Source of the DNA: Nitrospinae bacterium RIFCSPLOWO2_12_FULL_45_22
GTDB lineage: Bacteria > 2-12-FULL-45-22
Assembly (NCBI GenBank): GCA_001803565.1
Contig: MHDQ01000105.1
Coordinates: 1 to 7,923 of the forward strand
DNA length: 7,923 nt
Direction: 5' to 3'
Shown here: piece by piece, positions 1-7,923 of the stretch
Layout: every line of letters begins with the position of its first letter
How positions within the stretch are numbered: position 1 is the first letter of the stretch
Notes under the pieces: model-generated
Seen by the model: only the letters and a program-made list of their open reading frames with translations
What the model was told of the DNA's origin: nothing
Databases searched by the model: none
Made by a program: the position numbers and the translations under genes

Positions 1-2
1 TA

Positions 3-218
3 CGGCTTAAAAAGAAATTGGCCGAAGAGTTTCGGTACCAGTTGACCATAGGCATTCCAACCAACGAAGATGAGGCCGGCTTCTTATATTGGCTTGCCAG
101 ATTCATGAATGACATTACTACCCTGGCCTCGGGCAATCCGAAAAGGATCGCTAGAAGGGCAAAGAATAAGCTGCTGGGGAGGACACTGGTAAAGAAGATA
201 TGGCGATGGCTTTTCTAA
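3..218 (+). CDS. C-terminal end of an unrecognised protein with a basic tail (5' partial)
   Basis: The reading frame is open to the left edge of the window, so this is most likely the last 71 codons of a longer gene. A TTG at 18 could be a start, but no ribosome binding site precedes it and the codons before it also read as lysine-rich protein, so I prefer the partial reading. The visible part has a mixed segment with a few aromatic residues (FLYWLARF near the middle) and then about 28 residues dense in Arg and Lys, ending in IWRWLF. Such a tail suits nucleic-acid or membrane-surface contact, but that is inference. I do not recognise the family. The 87 bases after its stop contain no convincing terminator. 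Confidence 0.5.
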
Positions 219-305
219 TCGCCCCAATCTCTTGGCTTTTAACGATAATAGGGTGGGTCAGTTTTCAATTAGAATCTACAAAATTTAGCAATAAGGAGAA
301 ATGCA

Positions 306-1667
306 ATGAGAACGTGCGACTCTTGTGGTGCAGAAATACTTGATATTAGCCGATTTTGCCATATATGCGGGCATCCAACTCCGTTGTCTACGGGCCCGGA
401 AGTCCTCAGCGTCCGCCCCGAGTGGTTTTTCGCAAAAGAAGACCTTTTGTTACAGAAGTTTCTGACTAGTCCAGGACTTCCGAAGCTTAAAAAGCTGTTA
501 CCATCCTATTGGGAAGGTGTTGCAAATGGGGACAAGGGTGCAATTGGCAGCTTTCGGAAATTGGCTGTGCGCGTCACCGGCTCGTCTATGTTTCCCTCAT
601 TACTCGAATCATTCCATGAGGCGTTTACTTTATTTGGGCAACCCGGCCAGTGCTTTGAGGTCTTTGTGGGACTGGACCCAGAGTTTGGCCAGGAAAACGC
701 GGTCTGTACGTTTGATGGCGAGACCCCGGTTTTTTACTTTGTTAACAAGATTCTGCCGCTCATGAGCGAGCAAGAGCTAAAGTGCATAGTTGGCCACGAA
801 GTTGGTCATTGCATTTTGAGACACCCCTTGCATATAGACCACCGAGTAACCCAGGGATTGGCGGAACGTCCACTGGAGGAAGACATAGTAGAAGCCATTT
901 CGAGAGATGCCGATATATATGCCAGTTTTGCGTTGAGTAGTGCACTATCCTGGTGTCAAGAGCTCAATGCGGATCGCTTTGCGCTGCTTCTAACAAGGGA
1001 TTTGTCCGTAGCAATGGGAGCTTTTGTAAAGCTAGTGCTTGGTTTTTCACCGCCGACACCCCTCGACGCCGAGGCATTTCTTCGGCAGTTCACCCCTTCG
1101 ACTCCGGATGACCTTATAGAGTCACCTTCACACCCGGACTTCCCAAAATGCTGCCATGCGCTGAAACTGTTCTCAGATTCTAACGTCTACCAGAGTCTCG
1201 TAGGTGGTTCAGGCGGGAGACCGATCAATGAGATTGATTCCTTGGTTAGTGAGATAGTACCTGAGGCCAAGTCTCCGACAAACCAGATGATCGAAGTGTG
1301 GTTAATGGAATTTGTTCTAATGGCTACCGTCGCGGCCATTGATGGTAAGGTCACGCCCAAGGAGGATGAGGTACTGAGAAAGTCAATCCCACCGCCAATG
1401 CGCAAGCAATACGAAGAACTATGGACCTTTTGTGAGGAGAGTTACAATCGGCATGAAAATTACCAAGAATTAATGGAACGCGCATCGTTATTACCTGACA
1501 AATGGAAAACAAGGATCCTCAAACGGATGGTCACCATTGCCAGATCAGATCGGAAACTCGATCATAAGGAACTCTCCGAGATCTGCCATTTGGCGGTCGA
1601 TATCAAGGCCCAAAGACAGTGTGATAAGGTCTTCCTGAACGAACTGGGTTTAGAGATCCAATGGTAG
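306..1667 (+). CDS. Zinc-ribbon / M48-type metalloprotease / TerB-like fusion protein
   Basis: 453 residues, no signal peptide or membrane segment, so probably cytosolic. Residues 1-23 form a zinc ribbon with Cys4, Cys7, Cys18 and Cys21. The middle is an M48-like zinc peptidase: HEVGH at 164-168 supplies two zinc ligands (His164, His168) and the catalytic Glu165; ELNAD at 219-223 supplies the third ligand Glu219 and the conserved Asp223. Residues about 330-435 resemble a TerB-like helical domain, with paired acidic turns AAIDGKVTPKEDE (343-355) and ARSDRKLDHKEL (412-423). AAGGAG at 293-298 lies 7 bases before the ATG and fixes the start; the nearer ATG at 301 runs into a stop after one codon. 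Classical M48 enzymes are often membrane-bound, so the soluble form capped by a ribbon and a TerB domain is notable. The substrate is unknown. The protease call is firm; the TerB call is likely but rests on pattern only. Confidence 0.87.
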   Translation: MRTCDSCGAEILDISRFCHICGHPTPLSTGPEVLSVRPEWFFAKEDLLLQKFLTSPGLPKLKKLLPSYWEGVANGDKGAIGSFRKLAVRVTGSSMFPSLLESFHEAFTLFGQPGQCFEVFVGLDPEFGQENAVCTFDGETPVFYFVNKILPLMSEQELKCIVGHEVGHCILRHPLHIDHRVTQGLAERPLEEDIVEAISRDADIYASFALSSALSWCQELNADRFALLLTRDLSVAMGAFVKLVLGFSPPTPLDAEAFLRQFTPSTPDDLIESPSHPDFPKCCHALKLFSDSNVYQSLVGGSGGRPINEIDSLVSEIVPEAKSPTNQMIEVWLMEFVLMATVAAIDGKVTPKEDEVLRKSIPPPMRKQYEELWTFCEESYNRHENYQELMERASLLPDKWKTRILKRMVTIARSDRKLDHKELSEICHLAVDIKAQRQCDKVFLNELGLEIQW

Positions 1668-1736
1668 GATGATGAACGGAAGTCTCGGTGGAGATAACGA
1701 ATAATCAAGTCCGAAGGATCAGGAGTTGTTCACTGA

Positions 1737-1985
1737 TTGGACATGCATTGCCCATTCACGATTGCTTCTTTCGGGCTAAAAAATCGAGAACTCGCGTGGG
1801 CCATTCCAGGTGCGAAGCGCATTCTTAGCGGCATAATATCACGGGATGATTGTAAAGGCCGACTAGAACTTAACGGTGTATATAGAACCCGAGAGAACAA
1901 AATTTACGGAGCAAACAAGATTCATTTTATAAAACTGGTAGGGCTTCTTGTGTGCCAAGAAGGTTGTATGCAATCGGTTGTTTAA
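1737..1985 (+). CDS. Doubtful small ORF, 82 codons, function unknown
   Basis: Open frame starting at TTG (1737) or, two codons later, ATG (1743). A possible AGGAG at 1721-1725 is somewhat distant from the TTG and further from the ATG. The product is mixed in character, with no membrane segment and no motif I recognise. It ends three bases before the ATG of the helicase fragment and is in the same frame with it, separated by one TAA. Either it is a small real gene, or random open sequence at a recombination junction. I lean to the second. Confidence 0.15.
   Translation: MDMHCPFTIASFGLKNRELAWAIPGAKRILSGIISRDDCKGRLELNGVYRTRENKIYGANKIHFIKLVGLLVCQEGCMQSVV
1903..1933 (+). promoter_or_regulatory. 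Weak candidate promoter ahead of the helicase fragment
   Basis: TTTACG (1903-1908) and TATAAA (1928-1933) resemble -35 and -10 boxes, with a long 19-base spacer. It would start transcription shortly before the helicase fragment and so could drive the whole kinase-methylase-nuclease operon now that the original 5' end is gone. The match is modest and such pairs occur by chance in AT-rich DNA. Confidence 0.18.
1944..1962. repeat. Perfect 7-bp inverted repeat (hairpin) with 5-base loop
   Basis: CTTCTTG at 1944-1950 is the exact reverse complement of CAAGAAG at 1956-1962, with loop TGTGC. No T-run follows, so it is not a standard intrinsic terminator. It sits 27 bases before the ATG of the helicase fragment, so it could be a structure in the leader or mark the junction. 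It may also be chance. Confidence 0.35.
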
Positions 1986-1988
1986 AAA

Positions 1989-2774
1989 ATGCATCAGGAC
2001 TTATGCACAGACGAGGCATTCTTTGAGGATGATCGGAATGACCAGGTGGTACTTGACCTTTATAATGAGAAGGCAAATATTTTGGATGGTGATGTTGATA
2101 CCGAGGTAGATTTGGCTTCTTATGCCTATCAGATTTGGAAAAATGCCATTACTGCCGACCCCGGTCTGCAAAAGATTATCCCTGAACTACCTCCGGTTGT
2201 CTATTCCACACGCCCACACAGACCCAATGAACAAAATCCCGAAGGCGTGCTCCTCTATCTTCGAACGGCGGAAGGGAACGATGCCTTAGCCCGGATTGAT
2301 AAGAATGGTGACAGTGTCACCGAGTCTCAGTTTGAAATCCTGAAGGCAGCGGAGTGCTTGCCTGATACACCGGCATTGCCACGCCAGGAAAATCACCATG
2401 AACTGGTTAAGAGAGGTGTTGAGCTTATTTTGGAAGAGGAGAAATCTGTCGGTGGGCAGTTGGGGAGACCATCAAGCGCACGGTTCCGTACTTATGAGAG
2501 GTTAAAACATTATGCCCAAGAAATAAAAGGCACGCTCTTCGAGTCAAAAGAACTATTAAAAGCTATTGATGACATTTACCGCTGTCCATTGCGCCAATCG
2601 GCCATTGACACGCTTAACCGTCAACTGCGTAGCGGTATCTCTGACCAGGCCCTCGCAGAACTCGTCATTGCCCTGCGGGATGAAGATCGCCTCTGTATTA
2701 CCCATGAAGAAGAACAGACCCAGGAACCTAAAATTATCTGTTCAATGGGATTAGTCGATCAAGGGAAAGGATGA
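1989..2774 (+). CDS. C-terminal fragment of a large helicase (5'-truncated)
   Basis: 261 codons that I recognise, from memory of related sequences, as the C-terminal region of large SNF2/HepA-type helicases encoded next to Eco57I-type methylases; some of these carry an N-terminal phospholipase-D-like domain. Recognisable family stretches are VDLASYAYQIWKNA, RTAEGNDALARIDKNG, KSVGGQLGRPSSARFRTYER and DTLNRQLRSGI. None of the helicase motor motifs (Walker A, DEAH, motif VI) is present, so by itself the piece cannot be a motor. The ATG has no ribosome binding site, and the upstream DNA does not continue the helicase in any frame I checked. This supports loss of the 5' portion by rearrangement. 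The rest of the frame is intact, which suggests recent truncation or retention of a use for the C-terminal domain. The stop is followed after one base by the kinase start, as in an operon. Family placement is moderately sure; truncation is well supported. Confidence 0.68.
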   Translation: MHQDLCTDEAFFEDDRNDQVVLDLYNEKANILDGDVDTEVDLASYAYQIWKNAITADPGLQKIIPELPPVVYSTRPHRPNEQNPEGVLLYLRTAEGNDALARIDKNGDSVTESQFEILKAAECLPDTPALPRQENHHELVKRGVELILEEEKSVGGQLGRPSSARFRTYERLKHYAQEIKGTLFESKELLKAIDDIYRCPLRQSAIDTLNRQLRSGISDQALAELVIALRDEDRLCITHEEEQTQEPKIICSMGLVDQGKG

Positions 2775-2775
2775 T

Positions 2776-3369
2776 TTGAAGAACAAAACCCAAAACCCCA
2801 GACTCTATATCATTGCTGGCTCAAATGGTGCAGGGAAGACAATCTTTGCCCGTGAATTTCTTCCGCATTATGCTGAGTGTCCTGAATTTGTGAACGCTGA
2901 TCTGATCGCCGGAGGTTTATCACCATTCGCCCCAGAAAGAGCTGCCATTCATGCAGGCAGACTTATGCTGGAACAAATTCATTTTCTGAGTAATCGGGGC
3001 CTGGATTTCGGTTTCGAGACTACCCTCTCAGGAAGATCATATGTGAAACTCCTGCATCACTTGAAAAAAAAAGGATACCATATTCATCTGTTTTTCCTTT
3101 GGATTAACAGTATTAAGCTTGCCCTGGAACGTATTAAAATCCGTGTTCAAAGTGGAGGACATAATATTCCAGAATCTATTGTTCGCCGTCGTTTTAGCAG
3201 AGGACTTTACAATTTTTTCAATTTTTATCAAATGATAGTGGATTCATGGGTAATCTTTGACAATTCAGCGGATACCCCTAAAATGATTGCTTACGCGGAA
3301 TCAGGAAAGCTTGAAATCCTTGATCCGGGGCTATTTAGTATGTTATTAAAATACAAGGAGAAACGATGA
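2776..3369 (+). CDS. Zeta-toxin-like P-loop kinase (COG4185 type)
   Basis: 197 residues, the usual length of the COG4185 group of predicted kinases related to zeta toxins. Walker A is GSNGAGKT at 15-22, with Lys21 and Thr22 for nucleotide and magnesium. NADLIAGGLSP at 40-50 carries Asp42, at the place of the catalytic aspartate of zeta toxins. FETTLSGR at 80-87 and the arginine-rich RVQSGGHNIPESIVRRRFSR at 123-142 match the substrate- and phosphate-binding parts of the fold. Zeta toxins phosphorylate UDP-N-acetylglucosamine and block wall synthesis; whether this protein shares that substrate is unknown. The start is a TTG one base after the helicase stop, preceded by AAAGGA at 2766-2771; no in-frame ATG gives the full P-loop. 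The next gene overlaps it by ATGA. All key residues are intact, so it is probably active. Fold call firm, toxicity inferred. Confidence 0.85.
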   Translation: MKNKTQNPRLYIIAGSNGAGKTIFAREFLPHYAECPEFVNADLIAGGLSPFAPERAAIHAGRLMLEQIHFLSNRGLDFGFETTLSGRSYVKLLHHLKKKGYHIHLFFLWINSIKLALERIKIRVQSGGHNIPESIVRRRFSRGLYNFFNFYQMIVDSWVIFDNSADTPKMIAYAESGKLEILDPGLFSMLLKYKEKR

Positions 3370-3581
3370 AAAAAAAGAAAAAGTCACCTCATAGTCTACT
3401 GGCATACCGAGCCGAGGAAGCTCTTAAAAGGGCCGTTGCGAAAGCTATTGCGGAACATCAACGCCAGGGTATTCCGATTGCCATCTGGCGCGATGGAAAA
3501 GTAGTTCGTGTTCCTCCTGATCAGATTACTGTCCGAGATGTTGAGGCTAATTATCTAATCTCAAATAAAAAGAGAAAATAG
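3366..3581 (+). CDS. Small basic protein, possible partner or antitoxin of the zeta-like kinase
   Basis: 71 residues. The ATG overlaps the kinase stop as ATGA (3366-3369), with AAGGAG at 3355-3360 five bases upstream, so translation of the two is probably coupled. The N-terminus is a run of lysines, residues about 11-34 look like one amphipathic helix (AEEALKRAVAKAIAEHQRQG), and the rest contains the pattern IPIAIWRDGKVVRVPPDQI, likely a short beta hairpin. I recall similar small proteins beside zeta-like kinases, but I cannot name the family. Position and size suit an antitoxin, though classical epsilon/zeta antitoxins are encoded before their toxin and this one comes after. It ends three bases before the methyltransferase start, so it is part of the same operon. 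Confidence 0.75.
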   Translation: MKKKKKSPHSLLAYRAEEALKRAVAKAIAEHQRQGIPIAIWRDGKVVRVPPDQITVRDVEANYLISNKKRK

Positions 3582-3584
3582 GCA

Positions 3585-6500
3585 ATGCCTCTCGATGTCA
3601 CACGAGCACGACAGTATTTAAGAGATTTGAATTTCAAGGCCCTCTTCATTGAAGAACTAGGATGGGACCAACATCCTTATCTTCTCGACGTCTATGTTGA
3701 TGGAAACACCTACAGTCTGACTTCTATCTCCCAGAAGCGCGGTATGGTGGCTTTTGTCTGTGCTCCAATGGATGATGGTCGTATCCCTGATTACCCCACA
3801 CGACGGAAAATCGAGAGACAGGTGGCAAGATCTGTCCACGAGCATCTCATCATTTATACCGACCAGGATAAAAAAATCCAGATTTGGCAGTGGGTCAAGC
3901 GTGGCGAAGCGGGCAAGCCCACCCAATGTCGTGAGCATACCTATTATTGCCATCAGCCAGGCGATTCCCTCATTCAAAAATTGAACGCCATCGCCTTCAG
4001 CCTTGATGAGGAAGAAGGGCTTACCATTGTTGATGTGACCGGTCGCGTCCGTGCTGGTTTCGATCTTGATCGGGTCACCAGGAGATTCTATGACCGTTTC
4101 AAATCCGAGCACGATATGTTTTTAAAATTTCTGAAATGCATACCCGATGAAGAGATGCAGCGGTGGTATGCATCGGTGATGCTTAACCGCCTGATGTTTA
4201 TCTATTTTATTCAGAAAAAAGGCTTCCTTGACAGTAACATCAACTATTTAGGTGACAAACTCACAGAAAGCAAACAACGGGGGAAGGACTGTTTCTATAA
4301 GGATTTCCTCTGCCCCCTCTTCTTCGAAGGGTTTGCCAAAAGGGAGAATGAGCGCAAAGCCGCTATTAACCAACTACTTGGGAAAGTACCTTTCCTTAAT
4401 GGAGGGATTTTTCAGCCCCACCAGCTTGAGGAGCTTTACGGCAAGGGCATCCAGATTGCTGATCTTGCCTTTGAAAAATTATTCGACTTTTTCGACCAGT
4501 ACCACTGGCATTTAGACGAGCGTCCCCTGCGGGCCGATAATGAAATTAACCCGGACGTACTCGGCTATATCTTTGAGAAGTATGTCAACCAGAAGCAGAT
4601 GGGCGCCTATTACACCAAGGAAGACATCACTGAATATATCAGCAAAAGCACCGTAATCCCATACCTATTCGATGCGGCAAGGCAGAAATGTAAAATTGCC
4701 TTTGATGTAAGGGCGCATGGCAATGCGCCCGATACATCGGTATGGCGTTTGCTCCAGGCTGATCCTGACCGTTATATCTACGATGCCGTGAAAAAAGGGG
4801 TTGACTTACCCCTGCCTCATGAGATTGCTATGGGTTTAGATGATGTCGCGAAACGCACTGAATGGAACAAACCCGCTCCTGGAGAATATGCCTTACCGAC
4901 TGAAATCTGGCGTGAAGTAGTAGCAAGGCGCAAACGGTACGAGGAGATTCGTACCAAACTGGCAAATGGCGAAATCCGGGATATTAATGATCTCATCACT
5001 TACAATCTAAACATCCGTCAGTTTGCCCAAGATGTGATCGAGAATTGCGAAGGCCCGGAATTGTTGCGTGCCTTCTGGCATGCTATTGTGGGAAGGATAC
5101 CGGAGAAGGCCAACGAAAAATTTGAAAGTGGCATTACCATTCTTGATCCCACCTGTGGTTCCGGGGCCTTTCTTTTTGCCGCGTTAAACATTCTTGATCC
5201 CCTGTATGAGGCATGCCTGGACCGCATGGAGGTCTTTCTGGACGAATTGGAACGTTCGGGGGAGAAACATCGTCCGGAAAAGTTAAGTGACTTTCGTAAG
5301 GTGTTGGAACGTATCGGACAGCACCCCAACCGTCGCTACTTCATCCTCAAATCTATTATTGTGAACAACCTTTACGGCGTAGATATTATGGAAGAGGCCA
5401 TAGAAATCTGCAAACTCCGCCTCTTCCTCAAGCTGGTAGCACAGATAGAGCGGGCGGAAGATGTTGAGCCACTCCCTGATATTGATTTCAATATCCGCGC
5501 AGGTAACACCCTGGTAGGCTATGCTACTTATGATGAAGTCAAGGGAGCAGTAACCAGATCATCCACAGGCCAGCTCAAGATGCAATTTGATGATACCATG
5601 AAACGGATTGACGAGAAGGCCCAGGATGTTGACCGCCTTTTCGGACGTTTCCGACAGCAACAAACCGAGATTGGTGGAGAAGTCACTCTCACCGACAAGC
5701 AAAAACTTCGTAACAGCCTGAAGGCATTGGAAGACGAACTCAACCGCTACCTAGTAAAGGAATACGGTGTTGACCCAAACAAAAAGGCTGCCTACGATAA
5801 ATGGCTCGCCTCCCATAAACCATTCCATTGGTTTATTGAGTTCTATGGCATTGTTTACAACAGGGGCGGTTTTGATGTAATTATTGGCAATCCACCCTAT
5901 GTGGAGTACAGCAAGATTCGCGATGATTATACGATAATAAGGGGTCAATACAAAACTGAAGCTACAAGCAATCTGTATTCGTTTATATTGGAGCGATCTA
6001 AATCTCTTCTCCTTTCGGGTGGTAGTTTAGGCATAATTCTACCGTTGAGTGCATTTTGTACGCAAAGGATGGTGCCTTTGATTAAATTGGTTAAGGGGAA
6101 AAGTGGCGCCAAGTGGATCGCTCATTTCGGATGGCGTCCTGCTAAACTTTTCGAAGGAGTTAATATTCCTCTTTCGATTTTGCTATTCAAGCCAGGACAA
6201 CCTCGTATTTACACTACTACATTTGTGAAATGGTACAGAGATTATCGACCCGCTGTATTCCCAACCTTACAGTATGTCGATTCCAATGAGTTTCTGCGAT
6301 TTGATTATGTTATCCCAAAAATTGGAGACCCTATTGAACGGGATATTCTGTCTAAAGTATTTACAAAACAGACACCCCTTGGTCACTATCAAGCCCATTT
6401 TGAAAGTAGGGGAGGAACACTATTTTATAGAAATACAGGAGGTCTCTACTGGCGTATTTTCACCGATTTCCAACCTTTTTTTTCTCAAAATGGACATCGG

Positions 6501-6935
6501 ATGAGTTCCAGTACTGAGTCAACCATAGAATTTGTAGATAAGGAAATTCTCTCCCTGGTAACTGGAATATTGAACAGCAATCTTTATTGGTTTTTTTATG
6601 TAGTGTTTTCATCTTTTCATCACGTTAATCCGCCAGATATCCTTGAATTCCCCATAGATTTTGATCAAATGGAGATAACAACAAGAAGACAACTGCTTCT
6701 TTCTTCAAAGAAACTAATGGATGATATGAAGCGTAAAAGTGAAATAAGGCAAAGAATCCATAAAGGTGGAGGTATTAGTAGAATGCAAACATTCTTCCCC
6801 TCTCTTTCCAAGTCATTGAATGATGAAATAGATTTTATTCTTAAAAAATATTATGGATTTAATTCTCATGAGATAGATTTCATTATCAACTATGATATTA
6901 AGTACAGAATGGCTGAAGATAGGGAAGGAGATTAA
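3585..6935 (+). CDS. Eco57I-class N6-adenine DNA methyltransferase of a restriction or phage-defence operon
   Basis: 1116 residues; transfers methyl from S-adenosylmethionine to adenine in a DNA target. Residues about 1-160 form an N-terminal domain seen in large helicase-associated methylases (IERQVARSVHEHLIIYTD, IQIWQW). A helical part follows, RFYDRFKSEHDMFLKFL and LNRLMFIYFIQKKGFLD. The methylase core has LGYIFEKYVN (326-335), MGAYYTKE (339-346, motif X-like), DPTCGSGAF (521-529, motif I, cofactor binding), NLYGVDIMEEAIEICKLRLF (start near 595), and catalytic NPPY at 769-772 (motif IV). The remainder is the target recognition region, ending in a conserved-looking IDFIINYDIKYRM. The length is typical of DISARM/BREX-like or type IIG-like enzymes, and no clear nuclease active site is visible. 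The ATG follows the previous stop by three bases with only a weak GAGA upstream, so coupling is likely. GC falls from about half near motif I to about a third or less past NPPY, suggesting an exchanged recognition domain. Confidence 0.9.
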   Translation: MPLDVTRARQYLRDLNFKALFIEELGWDQHPYLLDVYVDGNTYSLTSISQKRGMVAFVCAPMDDGRIPDYPTRRKIERQVARSVHEHLIIYTDQDKKIQIWQWVKRGEAGKPTQCREHTYYCHQPGDSLIQKLNAIAFSLDEEEGLTIVDVTGRVRAGFDLDRVTRRFYDRFKSEHDMFLKFLKCIPDEEMQRWYASVMLNRLMFIYFIQKKGFLDSNINYLGDKLTESKQRGKDCFYKDFLCPLFFEGFAKRENERKAAINQLLGKVPFLNGGIFQPHQLEELYGKGIQIADLAFEKLFDFFDQYHWHLDERPLRADNEINPDVLGYIFEKYVNQKQMGAYYTKEDITEYISKSTVIPYLFDAARQKCKIAFDVRAHGNAPDTSVWRLLQADPDRYIYDAVKKGVDLPLPHEIAMGLDDVAKRTEWNKPAPGEYALPTEIWREVVARRKRYEEIRTKLANGEIRDINDLITYNLNIRQFAQDVIENCEGPELLRAFWHAIVGRIPEKANEKFESGITILDPTCGSGAFLFAALNILDPLYEACLDRMEVFLDELERSGEKHRPEKLSDFRKVLERIGQHPNRRYFILKSIIVNNLYGVDIMEEAIEICKLRLFLKLVAQIERAEDVEPLPDIDFNIRAGNTLVGYATYDEVKGAVTRSSTGQLKMQFDDTMKRIDEKAQDVDRLFGRFRQQQTEIGGEVTLTDKQKLRNSLKALEDELNRYLVKEYGVDPNKKAAYDKWLASHKPFHWFIEFYGIVYNRGGFDVIIGNPPYVEYSKIRDDYTIIRGQYKTEATSNLYSFILERSKSLLLSGGSLGIILPLSAFCTQRMVPLIKLVKGKSGAKWIAHFGWRPAKLFEGVNIPLSILLFKPGQPRIYTTTFVKWYRDYRPAVFPTLQYVDSNEFLRFDYVIPKIGDPIERDILSKVFTKQTPLGHYQAHFESRGGTLFYRNTGGLYWRIFTDFQPFFSQNGHRMSSSTESTIEFVDKEILSLVTGILNSNLYWFFYVVFSSFHHVNPPDILEFPIDFDQMEITTRRQLLLSSKKLMDDMKRKSEIRQRIHKGGGISRMQTFFPSLSKSLNDEIDFILKKYYGFNSHEIDFIINYDIKYRMAEDREGD

Positions 6936-6938
6936 TGT

Positions 6939-7721
6939 ATGGGCGATTATAAGAATATCAATCGGAAAGCTATTTTTGATTTATTACGGAAAGGTACTCA
7001 TGGTGTATACAGTGAGTCACAGTTAATAATTCCAGCATTAATATTACTCTCTGAGAATAGATCGGGACTTAGAACAAGCAAATTAATACAGAAACTTGAG
7101 AAATTGTTAAAACCAAAAGGTCATAATGCAGAGCTTATTTCTGGAAGAAAAGATACTTATTTTAGTCAGAAGGTTAGGAATTTGAAATCTCATAATACTC
7201 TTACAAGTAGAGGTCTCGCTACATATAGAAATGGTCTATGGAAAATTACAGATAGAGGTTCTTCATTTTTAGAAGAGAATGAGCATATACGCCCATTACT
7301 CCACGATCAGGGTTTCACCCCTGAAAAAATAGAAAAGGAAACCGATGGGGATTATTCAAAAATTGTTATCGAGGAGGGGATATTAGGGTTAAAAACCTCC
7401 AAACAAAGGAAACGATCTCAAAAATTGAGACAAATAGCGATTAAGGAGTTTAAAGAAAGACATGAAAATAAACTAATTTGCGTGGTATGTAATTTTGATT
7501 TTTCGGAATGCTATGGAGATTATGGAAAGGATTATATTGAAATCCACCATACCGAACCCGTCCATTTAAATGACATACGAGGAGTTAAAAGTATGTTAAT
7601 TAAAGCCCTAAAGAAAGTTGTACCTATTTGCTCAAATTGCCACCGAATGGTTCATCGAAAAGTAGGGAAGATGGTGTCTATAGACCAGCTAAGGGATATC
7701 GTAAACAAGCTTAAAATTTAA
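6939..7721 (+). CDS. Winged-helix plus HNH endonuclease
   Basis: 260 residues. Residues about 25-115 read like a winged-helix DNA-binding domain similar in pattern to the N-terminal part of Mrr-type restriction proteins: helix-rich start, then YFSQKVRNLKSHNTLTSRGL and a WKITDRGSSFLEEN end. A basic linker (about 150-178) leads to an HNH nuclease domain: CVVC at 181-184 and CSNC at 231-234 form the zinc-binding pairs; EIHH at 201-204 gives the likely general base His204; Asn233, His235 and His239 complete the metal-binding end. Start ATG at 6939 has AAGGAG at 6925-6930, 8 bases away, and follows the methylase stop by three bases. An HNH nuclease directly after a DNA methylase is most simply its restriction partner. 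The gene is very AT-rich (two sampled 60-base lines, 7081 and 7141, have 16 and 18 G+C) and matches the 3' part of the methylase, so the two probably arrived together. Confidence 0.85.
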   Translation: MGDYKNINRKAIFDLLRKGTHGVYSESQLIIPALILLSENRSGLRTSKLIQKLEKLLKPKGHNAELISGRKDTYFSQKVRNLKSHNTLTSRGLATYRNGLWKITDRGSSFLEENEHIRPLLHDQGFTPEKIEKETDGDYSKIVIEEGILGLKTSKQRKRSQKLRQIAIKEFKERHENKLICVVCNFDFSECYGDYGKDYIEIHHTEPVHLNDIRGVKSMLIKALKKVVPICSNCHRMVHRKVGKMVSIDQLRDIVNKLKI

Positions 7722-7722
7722 T

Positions 7723-7839
7723 TTTGCCTTTGGGCAACCGTGGCAGGGCAATGTTTACGCTATCAAACAAGTCGCACCCATCATCAAGGAAGAACCCAAC
7801 GAAATAGTGGTGATTACTGTCTATACGTTTTACTTATGA
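7723..7839 (+). pseudogene. Start-less remnant of a DUF4258-like protein
   Basis: The frame ending at TGA 7837-7839 encodes NVYAIKQVAPIIKEEPNEIV and then VITVYTFYL, which resembles the C-terminal end of DUF4258 proteins (usually about 80-90 residues, RelE/HigB-like in being small putative toxins). Upstream the frame reaches a stop at 7702-7704 inside the HNH gene, and it holds no ATG or TTG and only late GTGs. So the N-terminal half is missing, probably lost where the HNH gene end was joined at about 7722. The following DUF2283 gene, the usual neighbour of DUF4258, supports the call. Family assignment is from memory and the piece is short. Confidence 0.55.
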
Positions 7840-7851
7840 AAGGAGACCAAG

Positions 7852-7923
7852 ATGAAAATCAGTTACGATCCTGAGGTTGATGCCCTCTATATCCGCTTGA
7901 TTGAAGGACATCACGAATGCCGC
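7852..7923 (+). CDS. DUF2283 family protein, N-terminal 24 codons (3' partial)
   Basis: Reads MKISYDPEVDALYIRL at the start, the hallmark opening of the DUF2283 family of small (about 60-80 residue) proteins. AAAGGAG at 7839-7845 lies 6 bases before the ATG and fixes the start. The gene runs off the window. DUF2283 proteins commonly follow DUF4258 proteins in toxin-antitoxin-like pairs and are then the presumed antitoxin; here the partner upstream is broken, so this would be a solitary antitoxin. Biochemical function is unknown. Confidence 0.82.
   Translation, partial: MKISYDPEVDALYIRLIEGHHECR

Follow-up and report, generated by a model that had tools for sequence, protein, structure and literature searches.

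The locus and its broken helicase gene

The window, a stretch of 7,923 nucleotides from Nitrospinae bacterium RIFCSPLOWO2_12_FULL_45_22 (assembly GCA_001803565.1, contig MHDQ01000105.1, positions 1 to 7,923, forward strand), was analysed for a restriction-type operon in which a zeta-family kinase and a small partner are encoded between helicase and methylase genes. Five open reading frames (ORFs) are packed on the + strand: the C-terminal piece of a helicase (2005–2774, 250 residues; called ATG at 1989), an intact P-loop kinase of the zeta family (COG4185-type) and likely toxin (2776–3369), a 71-aa partner and likely antitoxin (3366–3581, overlapping the kinase gene by 4 bp), a full-length Eco57I/type IIG-class adenine methylase (3585–6935) and a winged helix-turn-helix (wHTH) plus HNH nuclease gene (6939–7721). 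A first-pass annotation, made from the letters of the window alone, had described these five ORFs, and they were recovered at the same coordinates with spacings of 1, −4, 3 and 3 bases. Its calls of a zeta-like kinase, an Eco57I-class methylase and an HNH nuclease were upheld by profile searches. The kinase matched PF06414 (Zeta_toxin; E 3.1e-11, 43.5 bits against a Pfam cut-off of 22.3); the methylase matched PF07669 (Eco57I; E 1.6e-25) and, at full length, the PADLOC profile REase_MTase_IIG PDLC03628 (1072.7 bits, residues 1–1114 on profile positions 1–1099 of 1100); and the HNH gene product matched phage HNH families of PHROG (E 4.9e-10). The methylase carries the motifs DPTCGSGAF and NPPY, and no nuclease domain was recognised in its N-terminus by Pfam. 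Neither the first ORF nor the 71-aa ORF gave a family match worth naming.

Intact relatives of the first ORF are open frames of 1,127–1,225 aa in which an N-terminal PLD/HKD nuclease domain precedes an SNF2-type helicase, and the first ORF corresponds to their last 250 residues. Its identity to the final part of a helicase of 1154 aa from the same order is 81–82%. The break was mapped against the intact helicase gene of a Nitrospinota bacterium, also of this order (L009). Window positions 15–80 (66 bp) aligned to nucleotides 280–345 of that gene at 82% nucleotide identity, and by tblastn the left-end remnant (3–80, + strand) matched helicase residues 90–118 at 72% identity; the remnant covers approximately residues 90–115 and stops just short of the HKD nuclease motif. 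Homology resumed at window positions 2005–2750, which aligned to nucleotides 2693–3438 at 71% nucleotide identity. Approximately 2,347 nt (~782 codons) of the helicase gene are lost; in their place lies a foreign segment of 1,924 bp (81–2004, strand not assigned), present in a single copy in the genome, with a gene for a zinc-ribbon/M48 peptidase/TerB-like protein (306–1667, + strand; PF01435, PF13240 and PF05099 above the Pfam cut-offs). A small ORF lies at the left edge of this segment (105–218). The HKD nuclease motif and the helicase motor are absent from the window copy. The missing middle was searched for in the rest of the 85%-complete genome, and no other contig had a copy of matching identity; the next best helicase matches were 28–41% identical and lay within other full-length genes.

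The term "helicase fragment" used in the first-pass annotation was accurate as to a helicase piece and missed that the gene is disrupted and that the piece is what remains of its 3' end. The interval then given for the operon (1989–7721) leaves out the second remnant, and the ATG at 1989 falls within the foreign segment, upstream of the first helicase homology at 2005. Relatives of this operon encode an intact PLD-SNF2 helicase with a type IIG methylase and often a DprA-like protein; the window copy does not encode that helicase intact. The window locus is read as a restriction operon of a widespread kind that has decayed, its helicase gene split by a foreign segment, and restriction by it is predicted to be dead. 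Restriction with a growth-arrest fallback, as the first-pass annotation had pictured it, therefore cannot operate at this locus.

The kinase and its small partner

The kinase is a member of the zeta family by profile, motif spacing and fold. Its Walker A motif and Asp42 are conserved, and K21 and D42 were invariant in the alignments. The P-loop lysine of zeta is presumably Lys46. With that assignment the spacing between Asp67 and Lys46 in zeta equals that in the window kinase, where Asp42 sits 21 residues past the Walker lysine. The catalytic base of zeta is Asp66/67 (PMC3062530). An AlphaFold model of the kinase (predicted local distance difference test score, pLDDT, 87.9) matched 3q8x, 1gvn and 2p5t with Z 15–16 and 2.6–3.3 Å over 168–181 residues, and its fold matches included the PezT, zeta and AvrRxo1 kinases; the best Foldseek match was AvrRxo1 (4z8q) at 16–17% identity. 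No solved structure was matched by sequence search with either the kinase or the methylase.

A partner of 45–72 aa was encoded directly behind nearly all sampled kinases. When a partner profile was run against the 25,010 ORFs in the loci collected, the hits above threshold were confined to kinase neighbours, with one possible fusion (L172) in addition, so that the 71-residue protein of the first-pass annotation proved to be a real conserved gene. Its model was of moderate confidence (pLDDT 73.6), with a long helix and a beta-hairpin predicted. As is general for type II toxin–antitoxin modules, the two small genes stay together across genomes, adjacent and overlapping. The kinase is a likely toxin and the 71-aa protein a likely antitoxin; the pair is most likely a toxin–antitoxin-type module of the zeta family. 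The possible fusion lies on a viral contig (L172:3959-4798), where a kinase with a divergent end has a partner-like C-terminal extension that scores only E = 0.0083; this is no more than suggestive of a natural fusion of kinase and partner. At another locus (L109) a second copy of a partner-type protein was seen close to the first.

The kinase was found in 31/386 genomes, the window genome included. Away from the operon the pair occurs as a free-standing bicistron across phyla and on plasmids, including plasmids of Synechocystis, Nostoc and Geminocystis, in a Parabacteroides record, and beside housekeeping genes such as hemW. It also occurs at type I restriction loci: behind hsdS of the type I restriction operon of pSYSG (Synechocystis), in the order hsdS, kinase, small gene, HsdR-like N-terminus at L115, and in the order hsdS, kinase, small gene at L123. 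On pSYSG (L099, 3745–6686) several toxin–antitoxin-like genes surround the gene for type I specificity: DUF433/DUF5615, a nucleotidyltransferase and the zeta/small pair.

The intact operon, its junction and the origin of the parts

A total of 84,980 genomes was scanned with the helicase C-terminus, which gave 473 relatives; the best 80 were analysed. The methylase gene lay downstream of the helicase gene in 76 of these 80 loci, from many phyla, and in the remaining four the contig stops within 300 bases (≤300) after the helicase. At the junction between the two genes, helicase and methylase abut in 52/76 loci, with a median of 25.5 bp from where helicase homology ends to where methylase homology starts; in the other 24/76 an insert of 163–1,774 bp was present. 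In a second, less biased sample the helicase end was found in 19/386 genomes and 14 further junctions were readable. In 11 of them the genes abut; of the other three, one holds a MazE-type/PIN (VapBC-like) pair, another two Uma2-like genes and the third the kinase pair. A DprA-like gene (PF02481) followed the methylase in 33 of 41 informative loci (e.g., L035:14115-14753), which suggests a three-gene core of helicase, methylase and DprA-like protein; no description of such a core was found. No match to the DprA-like gene was obtained in the 85%-complete window genome, whose contig ends 0.5 kb past the window. The best PADLOC match of the intact helicases was C3a139 ('HKD+Snf2'; 155–181 bits, partial length).

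Inserts at the junction supported by Pfam were ParE (L026, and L027 together with a MerR-type helix-turn-helix protein), BrnT (L037), PIN (L075), a MntA/HepT-type nucleotidyltransferase with HepT (L074), a MazE-type protein (L081), Fic (L025), DUF1016/YhcG (L021), DUF559 (L052), DUF3800 (L058), Bro-N (L038), an AAA/OLD-like ATPase (L085), Uma2 (L087) and DUF5674 (L094). DUF1016/YhcG inserts were also assigned at L068 and L089, by reading rather than by Pfam. From these gene contents the helicase–methylase junction is read as a slot with variable cargo.

The kinase pair occupied this slot in one of the 76 loci of the best-scan set (L020, Nitrospirales) and in one of the 14 of the second sample (G360), i.e., in 2/90 readable loci outside the window. 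The order helicase, kinase, small gene, methylase, for which the first-pass annotation had suggested a search in other genomes, thus recurs, at low frequency; 75/76 and 13/14 junctions are without the pair, as is the operon nearest to that of the window (L018; helicase end 84%, N-terminal part of the methylase ~80%). L020 and G360 both have an intact helicase. In each, the start of the kinase gene overlaps the stop of the helicase gene, kinase and small gene share 4 bp, and the methylase gene begins within a few bases. The sequences support the pair as a rare but recurrent variant of the restriction operon. In the kinase tree the three slot kinases (window, L020 and G360) group together (support 92/87). 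For the methylases of the three pair-carrying operons a single clade was strongly rejected (delta log-likelihood 149, approximately unbiased (AU) test p = 9.3e-6), and this suggests that the pair has moved from operon to operon. A single origin of the three operons was not rejected by the helicase trees (AU p = 0.405 and 0.55), and one helicase–kinase–small-gene origin followed by methylase exchange is therefore still compatible with the data.

The window itself is a mosaic in composition and not one coherent operon. GC content at third codon positions (GC3) is 61% in the helicase end, 36% in the kinase gene, 33% in the small gene, 51% over methylase residues 1–800, 31% over residues 801–1116 and 28% in the HNH gene; the values of the kinase pair (33–36%) are unlike those of both flanking genes (61 and 51%). 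Sliding identity of the window methylase to that of L018 was 66–89% over residues 1–800 and 12–38% beyond, and identity to the methylase of L027 beyond residue 800 was 60–67%. Among the 80 scan loci, L027 was the only one with this HNH gene (62% identity, same place), and the 3' end of a methylase of the common type was left over at contig positions 8120–8254. The specificity end and the HNH gene (window 5985–7721; L027:14597-15505) were most likely exchanged as one cassette from another allele. On this evidence the HNH gene is assigned to the methylase specificity end and not to the operon core. HNH and kinase occurred together in no other sampled locus.

Behind the operon lies a C-terminal gene remnant (7729–7836, + strand, by translation), and a second, similar gene piece was seen at contig positions 8280–8411, with a DUF2283 gene (PF10049) between the two; we take both pieces to be DUF4258-type. 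Together with the DUF2283 gene they look like debris of a further toxin–antitoxin-like module. The source assembly is a draft metagenome-assembled genome (MAG) of 321 contigs, and the contig begins within the helicase remnant. A scaffold joint of 9 N stands at contig position 7924, inside the DUF2283 gene, with an identical 42 bp on both sides. The duplication is likely an unmerged overlap and the DUF2283 frame there artificial.

Interpretation and relation to known systems

The locus is best interpreted as a decayed restriction operon whose junction slot holds a toxin–antitoxin-type kinase/partner pair that would act as an addiction lock, an abortive fallback or both (probability about 0.68). 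In intact loci, by what is known of the families, the methylase would mark self DNA and set specificity, and the PLD-helicase would attack unmarked DNA. The partner of ~70 aa would hold the kinase in check. If a phage shut off expression of the pair, or the operon was lost, the labile partner would be the first to disappear, and the freed kinase could then phosphorylate the cell-wall nucleotide sugar UDP-N-acetylglucosamine (UNAG), as PezT does, and arrest growth. In this way the pair would serve the restriction operon as an addiction lock, as an abortive fallback or in both roles. The split helicase, the changing cargo of the slot, the recurring four-gene order, the kinase–partner pairing and the cassette exchange come from the sequences themselves. 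Toxicity, neutralisation, substrate and a role in phage defence are properties that we infer for the pair from its relatives and its setting.

Several points weigh against this interpretation. The pair is rare in the operon family, so that a functional tie to restriction does not follow, and a generic addiction cassette would look alike. Polynucleotide kinases matched the kinase model equally well, and UNAG is proposed as substrate by analogy. In searches of Pfam, NCBIfam, PADLOC and PHROGs the partner matched neither epsilon nor PezA, and it is encoded downstream. Because the source is a draft MAG, a mis-join could in principle account for the helicase break. Were the break such a scaffolding or assembly error, the genome would really hold an intact five-gene operon; the 9-N joint with its 42-bp duplicate and the start of the contig within the helicase remnant are in keeping with this, whereas no N run was present at either break, no other contig had the missing middle at comparable identity, and the distant helicase matches belonged to other full-length genes. 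An error of this kind is considered improbable.

The first-pass annotation had proposed one five-gene system. This was rejected because the pair occurred in only 2/90 other readable loci and the HNH gene in 1/80 scan loci; with the pair missing from 75/76 and 13/14 junctions it is, therefore, not a core component. A related possibility, that the five genes form a single new defence system with the C-terminal helicase piece as a stand-alone adaptor, draws on the piece still being an open frame, 81% identical to its relative. Its start codon lies in foreign sequence, however, the short helicase form with this gene set was found in no other locus, and HNH and kinase did not co-occur elsewhere in the sample, which makes this possibility very remote. 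Absence from most loci had been named in advance as the mark of a chance insertion; such an insertion does not fit either, because the exact order recurs, the slot hosts many toxin–antitoxin and nuclease modules, and pairs also sit in type I operons. A growth-arrest module recruited into a restriction operon is therefore a reasonable reading. What survives of the idea of restriction with a growth-arrest fallback is a recruited module in a rare, recurrent variant; the helicase is broken in the window, and the HNH gene came with an exchanged cassette.

How closely the pair is tied to restriction was weighed between two further explanations. It might be a mere addiction module in the promoter context of the operon, stabilising the restriction genes and having no defence role, and this is a possible though less favoured account: free copies next to hemW and on plasmids, the varied toxin–antitoxin types in the same slot and the persistence of the pair in a decayed operon all agree with it, while repeated entry into two types of restriction operon seems to exceed what scattered insertion would suggest. 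Alternatively, the pair might be an integral second line of defence that senses when the helicase/methylase complex fails and then kills the infected cell, the part that PrrC plays for EcoprrI. The same slot, orientation and translational coupling in three genomes, and the clustering of the slot kinases although their methylases are not one clade, favour such integration, and precedent exists in PrrC/PrrI (PMC3710099) and in the backup effectors of BREX-like systems (PMC12839542). Against it, only ~2% of loci have the pair, the slot takes many unrelated modules, the kinase frame stays open here despite a dead partner helicase, support for the kinase clade is not strong and a single origin is compatible with the helicase trees; it was judged unlikely. 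About equally unlikely is the more specific proposal of a distinct zeta-kinase branch with a downstream ~70-aa partner, serving as a specialised growth-arrest arm of PLD-SNF2/type IIG operons, moved among them at one fixed junction and triggered by a disabled restriction complex. Sequence alone does not separate an addiction lock from a PrrC-like fallback, or either from both.

Named systems were compared with the preferred reading of a decayed operon with a recruited pair. Epsilon/zeta and PezAT share the kinase fold, Walker A and the spacing of the catalytic Asp; in them the antitoxin gene lies upstream, and assignment to either was rejected, the partner here being a ~70-aa protein encoded downstream with a 4-bp overlap and a helix-plus-hairpin prediction. 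AvrRxo1-ORF1/ORF2 likewise combines a zeta-like kinase core with a small partner, at 16–17% identity, but AvrRxo1 is a plant-pathogen effector and not a gene of a restriction operon. BREX-related Type-2 systems consist of an HKD-SNF2 helicase, an N6 methylase, DUF499 and DUF3780 (PMC12839542). They resemble the present operons in the HKD/PLD nuclease–SNF2 fusion, the N6 methylase and the recruitment of auxiliary effectors, and differ in that the usual third gene here is DprA-like and the methylase belongs to the type IIG class (PDLC03628). Membership was rejected on DUF499, the gene that defines these systems (PMC12839542), which was not in or near the tested loci. Six of nine genomes, the window genome among them, lacked it; in G355 and G360 it occurred on other contigs and in G095 >300 kb away. 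DISARM class 1 was rejected on scores (helicase, C3a139 155 bits against DrmD 114; methylase, type IIG 1073 against DrmMI 77.5). C3a139 and PDLC03628 were the best PADLOC matches of helicase and methylase, and PADLOC does not present the two as a single operon that has a kinase/small-gene pair at the junction.

Suicide and addiction genes inside restriction operons are already known. PrrC, an anticodon nuclease under the control of the restriction complex, is encoded inside the type I restriction operon of EcoprrI, and HEPN, DOC or RhuM genes are also embedded in restriction operons (PMC3710099). The present arrangement resembles PrrC/EcoprrI in placing a potentially self-harming enzyme, proposed as a second line, among the genes of a restriction operon. 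It differs in that the enzyme is a kinase of the zeta type, comes with a small partner of its own and lies in a PLD-SNF2/type IIG operon. In the open-access literature no paper was found that describes a restriction operon with a zeta-type kinase and, downstream of it, an antitoxin-like partner. The operons with intact helicase (L020 and G360), rather than the broken copy, are suited to tests of toxicity of the pair and of protection from phage. The slot between helicase and methylase looks like a natural sampling site for toxin–antitoxin and nuclease modules, and reading it across genomes should therefore expose new pairs.

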